Source: an uncultured Hyphomicrobiales bacterium (GTDB taxonomy: Bacteria > Pseudomonadota > Alphaproteobacteria > Rhizobiales > Beijerinckiaceae). From it: 60,940 nt of DNA. A program made the position numbers and the translations under genes. The stretch spans positions 1-60,940 of the forward strand of contig CAIZEI010000047.1 in the NCBI GenBank assembly GCA_903931945.1, in the 5' to 3' direction. The first letter of the stretch is position 1, and each line of letters opens with the position of its first letter. The notes below the pieces were generated by a model. It did not search any database. It was not told where the DNA came from and was given only the letters and a program-made list of their open reading frames with translations. Below are positions 9,347 through 24,653 of the stretch, in pieces.

Positions 9347-10099
9347 ATGCGCTCGACCGACTTTCTAACCGACGCAGATTACATACCCAAAGGCCCAAAC
9401 TGGATCCGCATAGACGACATCGACTACTGGCAGGAAACGCTACCATCGCTAGCCACCCGCCGCTGGGCTCCGACCGCGCGCCACACCGGTCGAACGCGTA
9501 TCCCGGCGATCACTGGCGCTCCTGGCGCAGTCAGGGCGGTCGATTGCGAAAGCCTGCAAGAAGGCAATGTCGCCGTTGTACTTCTCGCTCGTCGCGACAT
9601 CGTCGATCTCGTCGAGCAACCGCCGGCCGTCAAATATTTTGACAAAGTCGAACAGTGTTGGCGTGAACACACCTTCGACTTCCTGGCGACCATGGCCAAC
9701 GGCTGGAAAATCGCCATCGCCAATCGGCCACAAAAACGGTCCGAAGAAGTCGAGCGTATAATCAAGGCGATCGCTGAACAGGGCTGCACGCTTGCCGACG
9801 CCTACACCGTTGTCACGGACGCCGACCTGCCAAAAAACCTTATAAGGAACGCCGAGCTGATCCTCGCGGTCCGGCGCGACCACGACCGCTCGGCCGACAA
9901 GAAAATCCGCGACATCGTCGGCACACTCAACGGCGCCGTCACAATCGAGACGCTTGTCACCGCCAGCGGCTTGGCAGGCAAAGGCTTCCGCGCCGTCGTC
10001 CGCCTCATCGACGAAGGCGAGATCGAAATCGAGCGCAACATCATGATCGACTTCCCGGCCCTCGTTCGCCATTCCGCATCGAGACGGGGCAACCAATGA
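9347..10099 (+). CDS. TnsA-like transposon endonuclease, copy 2
   Basis: 250 residues. It aligns through most of its length with the preceding TnsA-like protein: E68/E72, EQPP at 90-93, D111 in HTFDF, IANRP with R127 replacing the usual lysine, and a shared C-terminal segment (KKIRDIVGTLNG, then GLAGKGFRAVVRL). The spacing from the Asp to the Arg is 16 residues in both copies. Its stop overlaps the start of the TnsB gene (ATGA), so this copy is the one translationally coupled to the transposase operon. The two copies may form a heteromeric nuclease, or one may be regulatory; both ideas are inference. The ribosome site before the ATG is weak. Confidence 0.65.
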   Translation: MRSTDFLTDADYIPKGPNWIRIDDIDYWQETLPSLATRRWAPTARHTGRTRIPAITGAPGAVRAVDCESLQEGNVAVVLLARRDIVDLVEQPPAVKYFDKVEQCWREHTFDFLATMANGWKIAIANRPQKRSEEVERIIKAIAEQGCTLADAYTVVTDADLPKNLIRNAELILAVRRDHDRSADKKIRDIVGTLNGAVTIETLVTASGLAGKGFRAVVRLIDEGEIEIERNIMIDFPALVRHSASRRGNQ

Positions 10100-12384
10100 A
10101 AGGCAAGGCCCTCGTCCCCTATCTGCCGAAACAGCCCGGGCCCAAAGGGCCCGCGATCCGGGAAGCTTTCGGTCCACTCGACCGGATCAGCATCAGCAAT
10201 CGCTCCGAAGACAAAAACGCGCGCATTCATTACAAGCCGCACGACAGCTCAACGATAGGCCACGCGCTTGAGCGCGTCGACGAGCCGGGCAATGTCGAGA
10301 CCTTTACCCACGAACAAATCGCAGAGCTCAAAAGGTCAGGCCGGCTCATCTACGAACGCGGCTATTTCGAGCAAAAATCGGCGGAAATCCGCCTGCTCGC
10401 GGGCGATCTCCGGCTCGTGGATCTGCATCTCAAGCGACAGGACCGAATCGACTTCAAGCAGATCATCGTTGAAGGCCTCGACCGCATGATCCAGATGGGC
10501 CAAGCGAGTAAGTCCGATGAGAGTATCGACCGCGCCCTCGAACTCATCTTCGCGGTCAGAGGCGCAGAGCTCGACCGCTTAAAAGGTAAAAAACGCGCGG
10601 ACGGAAACGGATATCACCGTTGGATCCCTTGCGCGAAATCCGTGCGCAACTGGTACAACACCTTGCAGAGCGCCAATGGCGCGGCGCTCGCGCTAATAGA
10701 TCAATACAAGTACGGGCCGCAGCCTTCGCCGCTCGATGCCGACATCCAGACCGTCCTGTTCTGGGCGTCGCGGAAATTCGCGAGCAATAGCAAACCGACG
10801 GTGGCCGACGTCCATCGGCGCATGAAAAGCCTAATCAACAGAATCAACAGGGCGCGCAAGAAGCGCGACCTCGGCCCCTTCGGATGCCCGGACTATAACA
10901 CTCTCGAAGCGCGCATCGCGGCCAACGGCGCCTTCTACAACTATGCCGGGCGACAGGGCGAAGACAACGCCAAGTCGCACTTCGCACTCGTCATGGGCGG
11001 ACCCACCGCTACGCGCCTCGGCGAAAGATGGGAAATGGACTTCTGGCTAGCGCACATCCAAGTCTGGCTGCGCTACAGCAAGCTGTGGCCCTACTTGTCG
11101 CCCGAGCAGAAAGACGGGCTCGAAAAAAGCCGCTGGAATCTCTGCGTCGCGCTCGACTGCGCCAGCCAGGCGGTCGTCGGCATGCGGATGTCGCCGACGG
11201 AAACCGCCGAGGCAGCGATCGCGACCCTCGAAATGGGCATGATCGACAAAACAAACTACGCCATTACGGCCGGCGCGCGCTCGACCTGGCGCATGTATTG
11301 CGGCTGCGAAAAAATCGCCACCGACCAGGGCTCCGCTTTCTGGTCGACCTTCAAGGCCGCTTGCAACAAACTCGGCATCAAGACGGACAATCCGCCGGCA
11401 GCCCTGGCCTTCATGCGCGGCAAGATAGAACGCCTCTTCCGTACGATCGACGTGCAGGCCTTCGCCCGCCTCGTGGGCCGAACGTTCGAGAACACCGTCA
11501 CGCGCGGCGATGCTCCGGATATCGCGGCTCTGACGCTCGAGCAACTGGCGACCGTCCTCGTGCTCTATGTGGTCGATTGCTACCACCGCGAAGGGCACGA
11601 AAGCCTTGCCGGTGACACGCCCGATCACGCCTGGGACAGACTTGAGCGCCAACGCGGCGTCACACCTGCGCCGGACATCCATACGCGGCGAAATGCCTGC
11701 GGCCTAAACCTCACGCGGCAGCTCGACAAAAATGGCGTGAGAGTTCTCAACAATTACTACAACGACCGCGTTCTCAGCCAACATTTACGGGACGCAAACC
11801 AGAGCCTCAAAGCCGGCGAGCCATTTGACGTCGATGTCATCGCCGACCGGCTCAATGTCGGCTGGGTTTCGGTAAGGCTCGGCGCCAAAGGCTTCCACAA
11901 TGTCAAATGCATCACCGAAGAGATGCAGGGCGTCAGCATGATGACGGTGATCGCACTCTGCGCGGATTTACGGCGCCGCTTCAAAAATGGAAACGTACCA
12001 GACGAGGAAATCGCGCTGGACGCGCTCGACCAGATTGAGGCGATCGGCGAGGCGGCGCGGCTTACCTACAACATCGCTTGCCCGATCATCACGCTGGAGA
12101 CCGTCGAGCGGTTCGAGCGACATGTCGAGATTCCCTGGACCTCGCGTGAAGCCGCCCGTGCAAACCCCGACGCCGGCGGCGACATCCTCGCACGGGCCAT
12201 TAAAGCCAATCCGCCCGGCAATTACACACCGCCAGTGGCGCCGCCACTGGTGGCCCCCGCCCCGCGCACAGCGCCGCAAGACCGGATCAATGTCGATCCA
12301 GAGACCGGCGAAATCACCCCTTCAGCCAACCTCGACGACGACGAAGACGACGCCGATCTCCCTGACGGCTGGAGCAGCGAATGA
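10096..12384 (+). CDS. tnsB: TnsB-like DDE transposase (Mu/rve integrase family)
   Basis: 762 residues. The catalytic triad of the retroviral-integrase fold is visible: D315 in WEMDFW, D410 in ATDQGSAFW and E445 in KIERLFRTID, a D-x94-D-x34-E spacing normal for TnsB/TniA/MuA transposases. The N-terminal third should hold end-binding helix-turn-helix domains. The region after 500 matches the Mu-type C-terminal barrel, and the last 70 residues are Pro-rich and acidic, as in tails that contact TnsC. TnsB/TniA binds the transposon ends, cleaves 3' ends and carries out strand transfer. The start overlaps the stop of TnsA copy 2 and the stop overlaps the TnsC start, so tnsA2-B-C is tightly coupled. 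Confidence 0.9.
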   Translation: MKGKALVPYLPKQPGPKGPAIREAFGPLDRISISNRSEDKNARIHYKPHDSSTIGHALERVDEPGNVETFTHEQIAELKRSGRLIYERGYFEQKSAEIRLLAGDLRLVDLHLKRQDRIDFKQIIVEGLDRMIQMGQASKSDESIDRALELIFAVRGAELDRLKGKKRADGNGYHRWIPCAKSVRNWYNTLQSANGAALALIDQYKYGPQPSPLDADIQTVLFWASRKFASNSKPTVADVHRRMKSLINRINRARKKRDLGPFGCPDYNTLEARIAANGAFYNYAGRQGEDNAKSHFALVMGGPTATRLGERWEMDFWLAHIQVWLRYSKLWPYLSPEQKDGLEKSRWNLCVALDCASQAVVGMRMSPTETAEAAIATLEMGMIDKTNYAITAGARSTWRMYCGCEKIATDQGSAFWSTFKAACNKLGIKTDNPPAALAFMRGKIERLFRTIDVQAFARLVGRTFENTVTRGDAPDIAALTLEQLATVLVLYVVDCYHREGHESLAGDTPDHAWDRLERQRGVTPAPDIHTRRNACGLNLTRQLDKNGVRVLNNYYNDRVLSQHLRDANQSLKAGEPFDVDVIADRLNVGWVSVRLGAKGFHNVKCITEEMQGVSMMTVIALCADLRRRFKNGNVPDEEIALDALDQIEAIGEAARLTYNIACPIITLETVERFERHVEIPWTSREAARANPDAGGDILARAIKANPPGNYTPPVAPPLVAPAPRTAPQDRINVDPETGEITPSANLDDDEDDADLPDGWSSE

Positions 12385-13427
12385 TCTTCAAACAACATGG
12401 ACCAACCATGACCGACGAAGTCAACTCCGATAAAAACGCCAAGCGCATCGACGAAATTATGAATGCGGTGCGCCTAAGATACATCAAGTCTCCGCGTGAT
12501 CACCAACTTCGAGAAATGTTCGACTGGCTGATCGCGCGCGGCAATCTGCGCGTCATGCCGAACCAGACGGGCGACGGCAAAAGGCGCGTCGAGGGTCGCG
12601 TCGTCGCGGTGCCTGGCCAAAGCGGCGCAGGAAAAACCACTGCGATCGAACGCATGCTCGCCCAACATCCAGACCTGCCAGACTTCGGCAAACCATCGTG
12701 CCCGGTCATCAGCGTCACCACGCCCGGCTCCTGCACCTTGAAGACGCTCGGCCGCGCCATCCTGTGGCGCCTCGGCTATCCACTCCAGGTAGACCGAAAG
12801 GAGCACGAAGTCTGGGAGATGGTCCAGATCCGCCTCACCACGCTCGGCACAAAGCTGATCTATATCGATGAGCTGCAAAACGTGACGAAGGACGCCAAAA
12901 AGAATGAGGCGCCGCGCATCCGCAACACGCTAAAATCGCTGCTCAATAATCAGGAAAACCCAATCTGCCTGCTGCTCTCTGGTACGCCCGAGATCCAGCA
13001 ATTCATTGAGGAAGACACGCAGATTCGGCGGCGCACGCGCTTCGTGCTGTTTCGCAGCTTCTGTGAAAGCGACACCGCCGCCATCAAAGGCACCGTAAAA
13101 ACCCTGGTGGAGACCTCAGGGCTCACCGTCGACTTCCGCGGCCAACTTGCGCAGCGCCTCCTTCACGCGGGGCTCGACGAATTAGGCACCGCAATTGAGA
13201 TCTCCATCGAGGCGATCGAGATCGCCCTCCAATCGAGCGCGACCATCGCCACGCGCGAACACTTCGCCATCGCTTACGCGCGCCGCACTCAGAACGCCGC
13301 ACCGGCCAACCCCTTCGTGGCCAACAACTGGCGCGCGATCGATTGCCGCCGCGTCGGCATGACAAATCCCAATGAACGCGACCCGAAAAATGATCCGAAA
13401 CCCACCCGGCGGCGCCGCAAGAATTAA
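12381..13427 (+). CDS. tnsC: TnsC/TniB-like AAA+ ATPase, transposition regulator
   Basis: 348 residues. Walker A is GQSGAGKTT at 79-87; Walker B is LIYIDE with D163-E164; a sensor-1-like LLLSGTPE follows. TnsC and TniB form ATP-dependent filaments or rings on target DNA and link the target selector (TniQ) to the transposase. The coupled start at 12381 (ATGA overlap with tnsB) is preferred, although ATG 12408 is also possible. The C-terminal tail is very basic. It lies 9 bp before tniQ. No Cas genes are seen, so a CRISPR-guided version of the system is not supported. Confidence 0.88.
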   Translation: MIFKQHGPTMTDEVNSDKNAKRIDEIMNAVRLRYIKSPRDHQLREMFDWLIARGNLRVMPNQTGDGKRRVEGRVVAVPGQSGAGKTTAIERMLAQHPDLPDFGKPSCPVISVTTPGSCTLKTLGRAILWRLGYPLQVDRKEHEVWEMVQIRLTTLGTKLIYIDELQNVTKDAKKNEAPRIRNTLKSLLNNQENPICLLLSGTPEIQQFIEEDTQIRRRTRFVLFRSFCESDTAAIKGTVKTLVETSGLTVDFRGQLAQRLLHAGLDELGTAIEISIEAIEIALQSSATIATREHFAIAYARRTQNAAPANPFVANNWRAIDCRRVGMTNPNERDPKNDPKPTRRRRKN

Positions 13428-13436
13428 GGGCAGCAC

Positions 13437-15302
13437 ATGACGATGTTGCAACTCCACCCCACCCTGGACCTCGGCCGCGACGAAACGCCGACGAGCTTCG
13501 CCTCGCGCCTGGCGCTGCTGCAAGGGTGCCGCCATCTGAAAAACTTCTGCGCCGACTTGGCTCTATCGTTCCAGGGTCTCGTCTGCGGCGATCCCACGGT
13601 CATCGCCCAACTCGCCCTGCTCTCCGGCGTCCCTCAGGGGGCGCTGCAGGCCAACGCCTTCGTTCGCGATGGCAACAACACCTTGATCCGCGGCCAGAAG
13701 CTCAACAGGGTCGCCGCCCAGATGACTCATGTGAAGATCTGCCCGAAATGCGCGGCCGACGACATTCAAACCTCTGGACTCGCGCCGGAGATCTCCATCC
13801 ATGACCGACTCCACTGGAATATCGCGTCGATCAGAACATGCGCGGCCCACAACACCGCCATCGTAGATCTCGGCGTCGTCGAAGGCACCAACCAGGTTTA
13901 CGACTTCGCGAGATACATCTCCGCAACGATTGATCGGATAGAGGGCCTGCCGGACATCGCGCGCCCCGCGTCCACATTTGAGCAGTATCTGCTCGGACGC
14001 CTCAACAGTGCGCCCAAAACCCTGCCATGGCTCGACGGTTTGGAGTTCTACGTCGCAGCCAAGGTCTGTGAGATCCTCGGCGCTGTCGCGTTCGGCGGCC
14101 GCTACGTCGCCGTGAAGGCTTACACCCACGAGGACTGGTATAGTGCTGGACAGGCCGGTTTCGAAATCGCTGCCGGCGGCGAGCCTTCCATTCGGGCCTT
14201 CCTGCTTGAAATGCAGGAGACCTTCGAGCCGTACAAAGGTGTGGCCCATGACGGCCCGCAAGGCGTCTTCGGCGCGCTCTACATCTGGGCCCACGCTATA
14301 AAAAATTCGGATTACGATCCGTTCCGAGCGATCTTTCGCCGGCACATCATCGAGACAATGCCGGTCGGTCCGGAAGACGTGATTTTTGGCCGACCGGTCG
14401 AAAAGCGCATTTTGCACTCGATCCGAACCGCACACTTGGCCTTCGGCGCCCATCCCAAGCGGCTCAGGAAGATCTTGGCCACCCAAGGCCTCCTGGCGGA
14501 TGGTCATGAAGCAAGGGCGGACAATCTGGTTCTGTTTGACGCTGACCGCGCCCAGGCGCTGAATGACCGCGGCGTGCTCGACGGGCTCTCGTTGACCGAG
14601 GTCGAGACCTATCTCAACGCTGGCCGAGTCCACGCCAAGCTGTTGGCCGACGCCGGCATAATTAAGCCGGCGATCAGGTCGAATGGCGACATTGGAGCCA
14701 ACGCCTTCGCCAAGGCGGACGTCGACAACTTCCTCGAGACTTTGCTCCAAGGCGCCGAAACGATCGCCACGACGACTGGCGCCATAGATACGATTCCTGC
14801 GGCGGCAAAGCGTGCCAATTGCGGCGCTGTGGAAATCGTCCGACTGATCCTCGACCGCCAACTCGCCTGGACCGGAAAGCTTAAGTATGAGGCCGGCTAC
14901 CTCTCCGTGCTGGTCAACGTCGATGAGATCAAGGCGAAAACCCGCGGCGAGGCACTCGACGGCCTAACAGCCCGCCAGATCGAAAAGGATATGCGCGTCG
15001 CGACCCGCGTAGTCGTCGCGCTCATCGAGCGGGGCGTCTTGCCGACCGTCACGACAATCAATCCGATCAACAGGTGCCCGGTGAAGATCACGCCGCGCAC
15101 CGACTATGAAGCCTTCAGGGCCAAATACGTGACGCTTTTCCAGCTGGCCGCAGAGCGCGGCGTGCATTTCAAAAAATTGAAAAATGAAATCGAGGCGGCC
15201 GGCATCCACCAAGCTCTGGATCGTGAGAAATTTCACGCTATCATTTACCTGCGGTCCGACGTCAGTGTGTCCAAGAACGTACCTGCTTTGGCGAAACGTT
15301 AA
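13437..15302 (+). CDS. tniQ: TniQ-family target-site selector
   Basis: 621 residues, larger than the short TniQ of Tn5053-type elements and closer to TnsD-like proteins. The N-terminus has the TniQ signature around ESFASRLALLQG-like residues (here TSFASRLALLQG). A zinc finger is visible: CPKC at 102-105 and CAAH at 135-138. The C-terminal 400 residues contain several segments that look like repeated small helical DNA-binding domains, compatible with recognition of a specific attachment site. TniQ/TnsD binds the target and recruits TnsC. It is the last gene of the operon. The target site itself could not be identified. Confidence 0.85.
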   Translation: MTMLQLHPTLDLGRDETPTSFASRLALLQGCRHLKNFCADLALSFQGLVCGDPTVIAQLALLSGVPQGALQANAFVRDGNNTLIRGQKLNRVAAQMTHVKICPKCAADDIQTSGLAPEISIHDRLHWNIASIRTCAAHNTAIVDLGVVEGTNQVYDFARYISATIDRIEGLPDIARPASTFEQYLLGRLNSAPKTLPWLDGLEFYVAAKVCEILGAVAFGGRYVAVKAYTHEDWYSAGQAGFEIAAGGEPSIRAFLLEMQETFEPYKGVAHDGPQGVFGALYIWAHAIKNSDYDPFRAIFRRHIIETMPVGPEDVIFGRPVEKRILHSIRTAHLAFGAHPKRLRKILATQGLLADGHEARADNLVLFDADRAQALNDRGVLDGLSLTEVETYLNAGRVHAKLLADAGIIKPAIRSNGDIGANAFAKADVDNFLETLLQGAETIATTTGAIDTIPAAAKRANCGAVEIVRLILDRQLAWTGKLKYEAGYLSVLVNVDEIKAKTRGEALDGLTARQIEKDMRVATRVVVALIERGVLPTVTTINPINRCPVKITPRTDYEAFRAKYVTLFQLAAERGVHFKKLKNEIEAAGIHQALDREKFHAIIYLRSDVSVSKNVPALAKR

Positions 15303-22679: not shown

Positions 22680-22952
22680 TCACCCAGCCTTTTTAACCCA
22701 GATTTTGCACCATCCGCTCGCGGCGACTGCGCCATCAACGCTCTTGCAGGAGGTGGGAGAGATGAACAGCGCACAATTCGAGCAATCGTGGCCATCCTTG
22801 GGCGAACCCTGATAGGCGACTGAGGATTGGGAAATCTTGGCGAACGCCGGTTGCAGTCCGGCGACCAAAATCGGCGCGGAGCCCGCCACGGCGACGCCAT
22901 GCATCATGGATCGCCTGGAAATCCGCCCGCAAAAATTGATTGTTCCGCTCAT
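22680..22952 (-). CDS. High-potential iron-sulfur protein (HiPIP)
   Basis: 90 residues including an export signal. I chose the ATG at 22952 because GGAG sits nine bases upstream; the ATG three codons earlier has no room for it. A twin-arginine type signal (ISRRSMM, then a hydrophobic stretch, cleavage near AFA at 36-38) fits export of a folded 4Fe-4S protein by Tat. The four cluster cysteines are C57, C60, C69 and C82 (CxxC-x8-C-x12-C), in the HiPIP order. HiPIPs carry electrons in the periplasm, for example from iron oxidation or to a reaction centre or oxidase. The gene is divergent from the Cyc2-like gene and shares a regulatory gap with it. Confidence 0.9.
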   Translation of the reverse strand: MSGTINFCGRISRRSMMHGVAVAGSAPILVAGLQPAFAKISQSSVAYQGSPKDGHDCSNCALFISPTSCKSVDGAVAASGWCKIWVKKAG

Positions 22953-23096
22953 CGAAGTCATCTCCAGGTTTGGCCTGCATCTGACATCCGGGCGACCCCG
23001 AGGCATAGCCACGGAATCTACCCAGCGGCCTCTGCGATGCGCGGCGCCCGGATGGGACCGCCGACGAACTAATGCCTGCGATACGCGGCTTGAGCT

Positions 23097-23110
23097 TTGA
23101 TGCACATCAA
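23097..23110. promoter_or_regulatory. Perfect FNR/FixK box between HiPIP and Cyc2-like genes
   Basis: TTGAT-GCAC-ATCAA, a perfect match to the FNR consensus TTGAT-N4-ATCAA and to the FixK TTGA-N6-TCAA pattern. It is centred about 150 bp from the HiPIP start and 143 bp from the Cyc2-like start, in the 294-bp divergent gap, so it could act on either or both. Induction at low oxygen is the usual meaning. Confidence 0.8.
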
Positions 23111-23246
23111 TTCGGGAGCCACAGATGCGATTATATATGTGCGTAGATTCCGCAGTCGCCGTTGTGGCAAGTCAAATGCTAAATCTTTCGAGACATTGAG
23201 GTTGGGAGGGCTGGATTGCTCGAAATCCGCCCATTGGGGATGTGCC

Positions 23247-24653
23247 GTGAAAACTCACTTTTTTGAACTCCCTGCGTTAAAATGCCGGCTGCTCGCCTCA
23301 GCGGCGATTGCGGCCATCCTGTCGGGCGTCCTGTTCGCTCCGGAGGACGCAGCCGCGCTCCCCAGTTTCGCGCGTCAAACCGGGCAGCCTTGCGCGTCCT
23401 GCCACACCGCCTTTCCCGAACTCACGCCATTCGGTCGCCGCTTCAAACTGGGCGGTTACACGCTGGAAGGCGGCGACAGCAAGCTGCCGCCGATCGCAGC
23501 CATGGTGCAGTCCACATTTACGAATTACGCGCGCAGCCTTGATGCGCCCATGGGGAACTACACGCCGCGATCGCCCAATGGCGGCTTTGCAAACAACAAC
23601 AACATCGATCTTTCGCAGCAGGTCAGCATTTTTTATGGCGGCAAGATCTATGGAAATCTTGGCGCCTTTGTGCAGACGACATTCAACAACGGGTATGGTC
23701 GAACATACAGCCTCGATCTGGCCGACATTCGCTATGCCGACACAGCCAAAATAGGCAATCTGGACTTTCTTTTCGGGTTCACCGCCAATAACGCGCCCGG
23801 CGTGCAGGATGTCTGGAATACGACCCCCCAGTGGAACTTTCCCTACATCAAATCCGCATTCGCGCTGTCTCCGGCGGCCGGCACAATGATTGAAAGCTGG
23901 GGATCGAGCCAGGCTGCGGGCGCGGGCGCCTATGTCTTTGCACATGATCTTGTCTATGCTGAACTCAGCGCTTACGGCTCGTTGTCGCGCAACACCCAAA
24001 CGACGCTCGGCGTTTCCCCGCCAAACCAGACGTTTGCCATCCAGGGGCTCGCGCCCTACTGGCGCCTCGCGATCGAGCCGAACTGGGGAAACAACTCCCT
24101 GATGCTCGGGACGTTCGGCATGGCCGCGAACATCGGCCCGGCGGGCGACTTCTCGATGGGAACCGACAGAATTACCGATATCGGACTGGACGCCCAATAT
24201 CAGTGGATCGGCGATCTCCATGCCGTGACGGCGCGCGCCAGTTACATCTATGAGAGGCAGCAACTGGGCGCTTCGTTCGGTCTTGGAAATTCCGCGAACC
24301 CGAGTAACGATCTCAGAAGTTTCAAGGCGTCCGTGTCGTATATTTACGATCACATGATCAGCCTCACCGGCGCCTATACCCTGACCACAGGAAGCGCGGA
24401 CGCCTTTCTTTACACCAGCAACTTGAGCTCTTCGCCCAATTCTGAATCCTGGACGGCCGATCTTGCCTTCCTGCCGTTCAGCAAGGGCGGTCCCGGATTT
24501 TGGCCATGGGCCAATACGCGCATCGGCCTGACGTACACCTATTGGACAAAATTCAATGGCGCGAAATACGACATCGATTTCAACAATTGTCCAGGCTGCC
24601 GGAACGCCAGGGACAATAATACGCTGATGCTCTACGCGTTCACGGCGTTTTGA
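23247..24653 (+). CDS. Cyc2-like fused cytochrome c-porin, outer membrane
   Basis: 468 residues from a GTG at 23247, preceded by GGGGA and followed by a proper signal peptide (KTHFF, a hydrophobic AAIAAILSG stretch, cleavage after AAA near 37). One haem-binding motif, CASCH at 49-53, sits just after the mature N-terminus inside ARQTGQPCASCHTAFPEL and TPFGRRFKLGGY. The remaining 400 residues alternate polar and aromatic-hydrophobic residues like a beta barrel and end in aromatic Phe (FTAF), the usual outer-membrane signal. This one-haem-plus-porin layout is that of Cyc2, the outer-membrane iron oxidase of Fe(II) oxidisers. Related proteins of unknown role are common, so Fe(II) oxidation is inference. 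Divergent from HiPIP, with a perfect FNR/FixK box between. Confidence 0.75.
   Translation: MKTHFFELPALKCRLLASAAIAAILSGVLFAPEDAAALPSFARQTGQPCASCHTAFPELTPFGRRFKLGGYTLEGGDSKLPPIAAMVQSTFTNYARSLDAPMGNYTPRSPNGGFANNNNIDLSQQVSIFYGGKIYGNLGAFVQTTFNNGYGRTYSLDLADIRYADTAKIGNLDFLFGFTANNAPGVQDVWNTTPQWNFPYIKSAFALSPAAGTMIESWGSSQAAGAGAYVFAHDLVYAELSAYGSLSRNTQTTLGVSPPNQTFAIQGLAPYWRLAIEPNWGNNSLMLGTFGMAANIGPAGDFSMGTDRITDIGLDAQYQWIGDLHAVTARASYIYERQQLGASFGLGNSANPSNDLRSFKASVSYIYDHMISLTGAYTLTTGSADAFLYTSNLSSSPNSESWTADLAFLPFSKGGPGFWPWANTRIGLTYTYWTKFNGAKYDIDFNNCPGCRNARDNNTLMLYAFTAF

Follow-up and report, generated by a model that had tools for sequence, protein, structure and literature searches.

Cyc2 of the Acidithiobacillus-type rus operon serves as the outer-membrane point of electron entry in a chain of iron oxidation, and it is with this protein, and with the pioABC operon of Rhodopseudomonas palustris TIE-1, that the locus described here most invites comparison. 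An excerpt of PMC5506826 describes the A. ferrooxidans rus operon as being under RegB/RegA. The pioABC operon joins a decahaem cytochrome (PioA) and a porin (PioB) to the high-potential iron-sulfur protein (HiPIP) PioC and, according to the excerpted text of PMC3050613, is activated by FixK and induced under anoxia. In a Bradyrhizobium from a pyrite-oxidising enrichment (Percak-Dennett 2017, as related in a part of PMC5566968), Cyc2, a HiPIP and three periplasmic c-type cytochromes are clustered, so that a HiPIP gene in company with Cyc2 is already known and the pairing is not wholly new. Within the literature searched, most subscription journals lying outside it, we found no FNR/FixK control of a Cyc2 gene, no two-gene Cyc2-HiPIP unit free of cytochromes and no account of Cyc2 in Rhodoblastus.

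The window analysed here, the whole 60,940-nucleotide stretch of DNA from an uncultured member of the Beijerinckiaceae, contains a HiPIP gene and a Cyc2-type gene in divergent orientation around an FNR/FixK-type box, and this arrangement is confirmed as a real feature. Open reading frames, signals and motifs bear out a sequence-only reading made before this work, in which a Tat-exported HiPIP (here 22680-22961, minus strand) was said to face a one-haem cytochrome-porin (here 23247-24653, plus strand) across 294 bp, a gap obtained when the HiPIP is taken to start at the ATG at 22952. Reading from the stop at 22680, that start gives a protein of 90 aa, and the ATG at 22961 one of 93 aa. A twin-arginine signal (RISRRSMM) can be read in the sequence, and the four cysteines that ligate the 4Fe-4S cluster (C60, C63, C72 and C85; 22707-22784, minus strand) are spaced C-x2-C-x8-C-x12-C, as in PioC. 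The protein scores 25.4 bits against the Pfam HIPIP family (PF01355, cut-off 22), and its closest solved structure is PioC (E 8.6e-8), in keeping with the kind of HiPIP that had been named. Similarity to the Acidithiobacillus iron oxidase Iro is detectable at 51.7 bits (NCBIfam NF041615) and falls below the equivalog cut-off of 100, on which ground identity with Iro was rejected. Elsewhere in the same genome lies a second, distant HiPIP-like match (G000 C191:29353-29580; 27% identity, E 7e-7), absent from the matches of the Pfam HIPIP search and adjoining what we read from the sequence as a dihydrolipoyl dehydrogenase-like gene.

The facing gene (23247-24653, plus strand; GTG start) encodes a predicted outer-membrane monohaem cytochrome-porin of 468 aa, above the 365 aa taken as the minimum for Cyc2, with a signal peptide, a single CXXCH and a C-terminal phenylalanine. 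As given in an excerpt of PMC8406198, the Cyc2 signature consists of AXPXFAR[Q/K][T/Y] before the CXXCH and PXL after it; the haem region of the window protein, ALPSFARQTGQPCASCHTAFPEL, reads ALPSFARQT-GQP-CASCH-TAF-PEL, with the haem-binding CASCH at 23391-23405 (plus strand), and so carries that signature. Searches of Pfam (best DUF4748, 11.8 bits against a cut-off of 27) and of NCBIfam returned no family, and a profile search of Protein Data Bank sequences returned no relative; membership of Cyc2 therefore rests on the published motif, on a near full-length match and on the tree, which together support it. An amphipathicity heuristic counted 10 peaks, against 8.1 +/- 2.2 in shuffled sequences. 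The near full-length match (29% identity, 195 bits) is to a Cyc2 (L207 of genome G833) whose gene neighbours include heme o synthase, above its NCBIfam cut-off, and, below theirs, genes that are rusticyanin-like (TIGR03095; 136.4 bits, cut-off 146.7), CoxA-like, CoxB-like and, weakly, CtaA (heme A synthase)-like, and which we take for a rus operon. Cyc2 of cluster 1 (Mariprofundus, Gallionellaceae) shares the haem signature with the window protein and lies in a separate clade; pairwise similarity to the Mariprofundus aestuarium protein is confined to the N-terminal haem end (54.7 bits), and the profile-profile probability against Mariprofundus Cyc2 is 99.2%.

A FastTree phylogeny of 106 Cyc2-type sequences, among which no named Acidithiobacillus (A. 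ferrooxidans) Cyc2 is included, places the window protein, together with Rhodoblastus loci, in a set of 10 that has full support. A search from an Acidiphilium homologue gave no Acidithiobacillus name among the 120 matches listed, most of them without an organism name. On the same side of the tree, inside a large set of 100, is the rus-operon protein, its exact place being unsure because it sits on a long branch; the program warned of long branches (where the rus-operon row meets L078) and of an odd letter make-up. Mariprofundus, Ghiorsea and a Gallionella-like sequence form a separate, fully supported clade on the other side. Of the 106 rows, 76 show the strict form of the published motif, that of the window protein among them, and departures from it are found in the rus-operon row (FARQL) and in the Acidiphilium and Acidocella rows (FAAQT). 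The sequence-only reading had called the protein Cyc2-like, and the tree agrees, setting it among Cyc2 sequences and in no clade with a demonstrated non-electron function.

Set beside its models, the window pair resembles the rus operon in the haem domain and near full-length homology of its Cyc2, and differs in having a HiPIP and an FNR-type box, and in that rusticyanin, Cyc1 and cox genes were not detected next to the Cyc2-type gene in the window. With pioABC it shares the cysteine spacing of the HiPIP, but the predicted partner is a monohaem cytochrome-porin rather than a decahaem cytochrome with a separate porin: the pair contains no multihaem gene, the porin protein having one CXXCH, in agreement with the claim that the pair is distinct from decahaem/porin systems. 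The parallel of HiPIP carrier, FixK control and anoxic induction is close. The window and the Bradyrhizobium cluster, as far as the excerpt describes the latter, both combine Cyc2 with a HiPIP, whereas only that of Bradyrhizobium has the three c-type cytochromes; a HiPIP without a nearby c-type cytochrome-like gene of at least 120 aa is found in the window and in 24 of the 59 relatives' loci with full flanks.

Those relatives came from a scan of named genomes that gave 376, of which the best 80 were kept as loci. In 34 of these 80 (kinship ignored) Cyc2 has a HiPIP gene no more than 1.7 kb away, for the most part in divergent orientation or directly upstream on the same strand, and in two more the distance is 2.5-3.1 kb. 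The pairing, whose persistence in relatives the sequence-only reading had set as a check, is conserved. Methylocapsa acidiphila, Methylocapsa palsarum, Methylocella tundrae, Rhodoblastus, Roseiarcus fermentans and Bradyrhizobium erythrophlei are among the bearers, with only 3 of 15 Bradyrhizobium loci (L132, L149, L152) having a HiPIP nearby. Across 199 genomes of the family, a Cyc2-like gene occurs in 29 and a HiPIP in 37 (both in 24, Cyc2 only in 5, HiPIP only in 13, neither in 157). None of the nine congeners examined has either gene, and the module is thus not core to the genus.

Where no HiPIP is near, di-haem c-type cytochrome-like genes commonly stand in its place, in 30 of the 46 such loci among the best 80 of 376. 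Restricting the count to the 59 loci with full flanks (21 of the 80 being left out), and calling c-type cytochromes by a rule of CXXCH plus hydrophobic start rather than by profile, we found a HiPIP in 29 (8 of them also with a c-type cytochrome-like gene), only a c-type cytochrome-like gene in 26 (23 di-haem) and neither in 4, so that one or the other adjoins Cyc2 in 55 of 59. A 120-aa floor for cytochromes, fixed after that initial count of eight loci with both, gives 5 with both, 24 with HiPIP only, 26 with cytochrome only and 4 with neither (Fisher 7e-8); in a tree-aware test with about nine independent pairs the complementarity was not significant. The HiPIP neighbourhood has changed at least 11 times on the Cyc2 tree. 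Taken as a pattern only, the near-complementarity of HiPIP and di-haem cytochrome suggests that they are alternative periplasmic partners.

Gene order in individual replicons and loci is varied. On a Caballeronia plasmid an annotated high-potential iron-sulfur protein is followed by a Cyc2-like gene and then a c-type cytochrome, and on a Methylocystis plasmid three c-type cytochromes, with no annotated HiPIP, are found at the Cyc2-like locus. Two HiPIP genes accompany a single Cyc2 gene in tandem upstream in L113 and L126 and on both sides in L161, and in a Methylococcales locus (L159) the Cyc2-like gene is followed by an open reading frame with 10 CXXCH motifs. One genome (G296; L067), the only one of 369 with nitrosocyanin (TIGR03096) above the cut-off, also has a Cyc2-like gene, from which it may be that the Cyc2 family occurs in ammonia oxidisers.

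Between the two window genes stands the perfect palindrome reported earlier, TTGAT-GCAC-ATCAA (TTGATGCACATCAA, 23097-23110), possibly common to both promoters. An activator of class II binds at -41.5, which puts the centre of its box about 32 bp from the -10 element. FNR/FixK control was judged by TTGAT-N4-ATCAA or TTGA-N6-TCAA at that distance, and in the window a -10-like TATATA (23132-23137, plus strand) is centred 31 bp from the box centre; binding of such a regulator is predicted, as is a cyc2 promoter, whose start site would lie near 23145. The expected number of perfect sites in the window is 0.10. The 5.03 Mb genome has 14, the window's included, and 10 of the other 13 fall inside some reading frame of at least 120 aa, so that a perfect match alone proves little.

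Conservation of the box in relatives exceeds chance. With five of the 80 loci left out (less than 150 bp upstream), 25 of 75 loci drawn from the best 80 of 376 have TTGAYNNNNRTCAA in their promoter windows (kinship ignored); since the promoter windows had been set after a first listing of the boxes, a control of 533 other upstream windows from the same loci was added, and 8 of these carry it (kinship ignored). Its density in promoter windows is 37 times that in the rest of the loci. The box, whose conservation in relatives the sequence-only reading had also set as a check, is kept in a third of them and absent from 50 of 75; Methylocapsa acidiphila, Methylocapsa palsarum and Methylocella tundrae have the gene pair but no TTGAYNNNNRTCAA box there, and Rhodoblastus sp. 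17X3 has both pair and box. Sorted by layout, 7 of 17 loci whose HiPIP is divergent carry the box, as do 6 of 15 in which the HiPIP is upstream and co-directional and 12 of 43 with neither arrangement, and in the six co-directional cases the box precedes the HiPIP gene, the first of the unit. Over 29 boxes, that of the window among them, the score for -10-like hexamers is the highest of 98 offsets at 32 bp from the box centre, a peak driven mainly by 15 sites without an upstream HiPIP; the same offset is not the top one in the 8 divergent sites alone, nor in the 6 co-directional sites alone.

Candidate regulators are present in the genome, which has three Crp-type helix-turn-helix matches above cut-off. 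By our own reading of the sequences, one, behind a response-regulator-like gene, contains C-x2-C-x7-C, the pattern of oxygen-sensing FNR proteins, and another is without it and FixK-like. Of its two oxidase subunits I, one (ccoN) is of the cbb3 type, at 679.7 bits against a cut-off of 583, and the other is aa3-like, scoring 649.8 bits on the stretch given where the cut-off is 671. Two TTGAG-N4-ATCAA sites, TTGAGTTGGATCAA and TTGAGCTGAATCAA, closely precede ccoN. At 98.5% completeness the genome gave no match to a photosynthetic reaction centre (Photo_RC), unlike R. palustris TIE-1 in this comparison, and none to RuBisCO; photoferrotrophy and RuBisCO-based autotrophy were rejected on these grounds.

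We consider it probable, short of confident, that the pair is a low-oxygen conduit activated by FNR or FixK, in which electrons pass from Cyc2 to the HiPIP to an oxidase and, coming from a donor outside the cell, supplement heterotrophic growth. The Cyc2-type cytochrome-porin would, to judge from its family, receive electrons at the single haem of its barrel from an extracellular donor, Fe(II) or another; the Tat-exported HiPIP, whose gene takes the place that di-haem c-type cytochrome genes have next to many other Cyc2 genes, would carry them across the periplasm; and a cytochrome oxidase, most likely cbb3, would accept them in the end. We propose that an FNR- or FixK-type regulator on the shared palindrome activates transcription at low oxygen, on the strength of the box, its spacing, the candidate regulators and the similar sites at a cbb3 gene. 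Since reaction centre and RuBisCO matches are absent, the electrons would add to heterotrophic energy rather than serve photoferrotrophy or RuBisCO-based CO2 fixation. The recurrence of the pair and of a low-oxygen-type site in many relatives makes it probable that this is a compact route exchanging electrons with iron outside the cell. The sequence-only reading, which had taken the pair for a possible oxygen-regulated means of drawing electrons from outside the cell, is supported in part, by Cyc2 membership as judged from sequence, a PioC-type HiPIP, conserved pairing and a conserved box with promoter-like spacing; inward flow, Fe(II) as the donor and oxygen as the signal we infer. Against the conduit count the 5 of 29 Cyc2-positive family genomes in which no HiPIP was detected, the 50 of 75 loci lacking the box and the nine congeners with neither gene.

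FNR-type control fits export of electrons as well as uptake. The main rival is a flow in the opposite direction, in which at low oxygen the bc1 complex would reduce the HiPIP, and the HiPIP Cyc2, which would pass electrons to Fe(III) or another extracellular acceptor. Such an anaerobic acceptor pathway suits an FNR/FixK-type regulator and a host without a RuBisCO match, and according to an excerpt of PMC10715153 the bc1 complex can be oxidised by HiPIP, and acidophiles, acidithiobacilli among them, have Cyc2 isoforms linked to Fe(III) reduction, which is what makes this the principal alternative. HiPIP potentials, however, are high (50-450 mV in the neutrophilic phototrophs listed in an excerpt of PMC10879576), so that outward flow would need a strongly oxidising acceptor, and oxidation is what both PioC and the rus operon are linked to; on balance we regard outward flow as unlikely.

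Crp/Fnr regulators for several signals use similar sites, and the box could in principle be read by one that responds to NO or nitrosative stress (NnrR/Dnr type), the pair then serving electron flow in detoxification or denitrification and not iron. The three Crp-type matches leave room for such a regulator, but the genome has an FNR-type protein with CxxCx7C and similar sites upstream of ccoN, and none of the ten window proteins scanned is a denitrification protein, which makes this reading very improbable. We give equally little credence to the notion that the haem of the Cyc2-like protein, a porin in this view, has some other role, in stress or metal homeostasis, and that its HiPIP neighbour is incidental: the function of divergent Cyc2 homologues is indeed described as uncertain in an excerpt of PMC8406198, yet through all the changes of HiPIP neighbourhood on the tree a HiPIP or c-type cytochrome-like gene has stayed beside Cyc2 in nearly every full-flank locus.

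A wider and more tentative proposal can be entertained, one that we consider possible though doubtful: that a two-gene conduit of monohaem Cyc2 and HiPIP, free of cytochromes and activated at low oxygen by FNR or FixK, is widespread as an accessory module among Beijerinckiaceae that are non-phototrophic or methanotrophic, and among neighbouring Alphaproteobacteria. In peat and soil it would allow heterotrophs without RuBisCO to gain energy from Fe(II) or from other donors outside the cell (lithoheterotrophy). The pair is carried by loci of Methylocapsa and Methylocella as well as of Rhodoblastus and Roseiarcus, and iron oxidation, or at least electron exchange at the outer membrane, would then extend to bacteria that include methanotrophs. 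It would also offer a handle on the role of the many Cyc2 homologues in bacteria not known for iron oxidation, with the shared FNR/FixK site tying Cyc2 to oxygen limitation and the adjoining HiPIP or di-haem cytochrome its likely periplasmic partner; site and neighbour together make both the oxygen link and the partner testable in cultured strains.

Two further features of the window may be recorded. The Cyc2-like protein has, close to its C-terminal end, a C-x2-C pair (C448 and C451; 24588-24599), common to several Rhodoblastus-like relatives (for example L003, L004, L005, L007, P0037 and P0042), not to all, and missing in the Methylocapsa-like rows of alignment A1. At 9347-15302, about 7 kb from the pair, are genes for TniB and TniQ (both above cut-off) and for an rve-domain transposase (below cut-off), which we take to be a Tn5053/Tn7-like transposition module.
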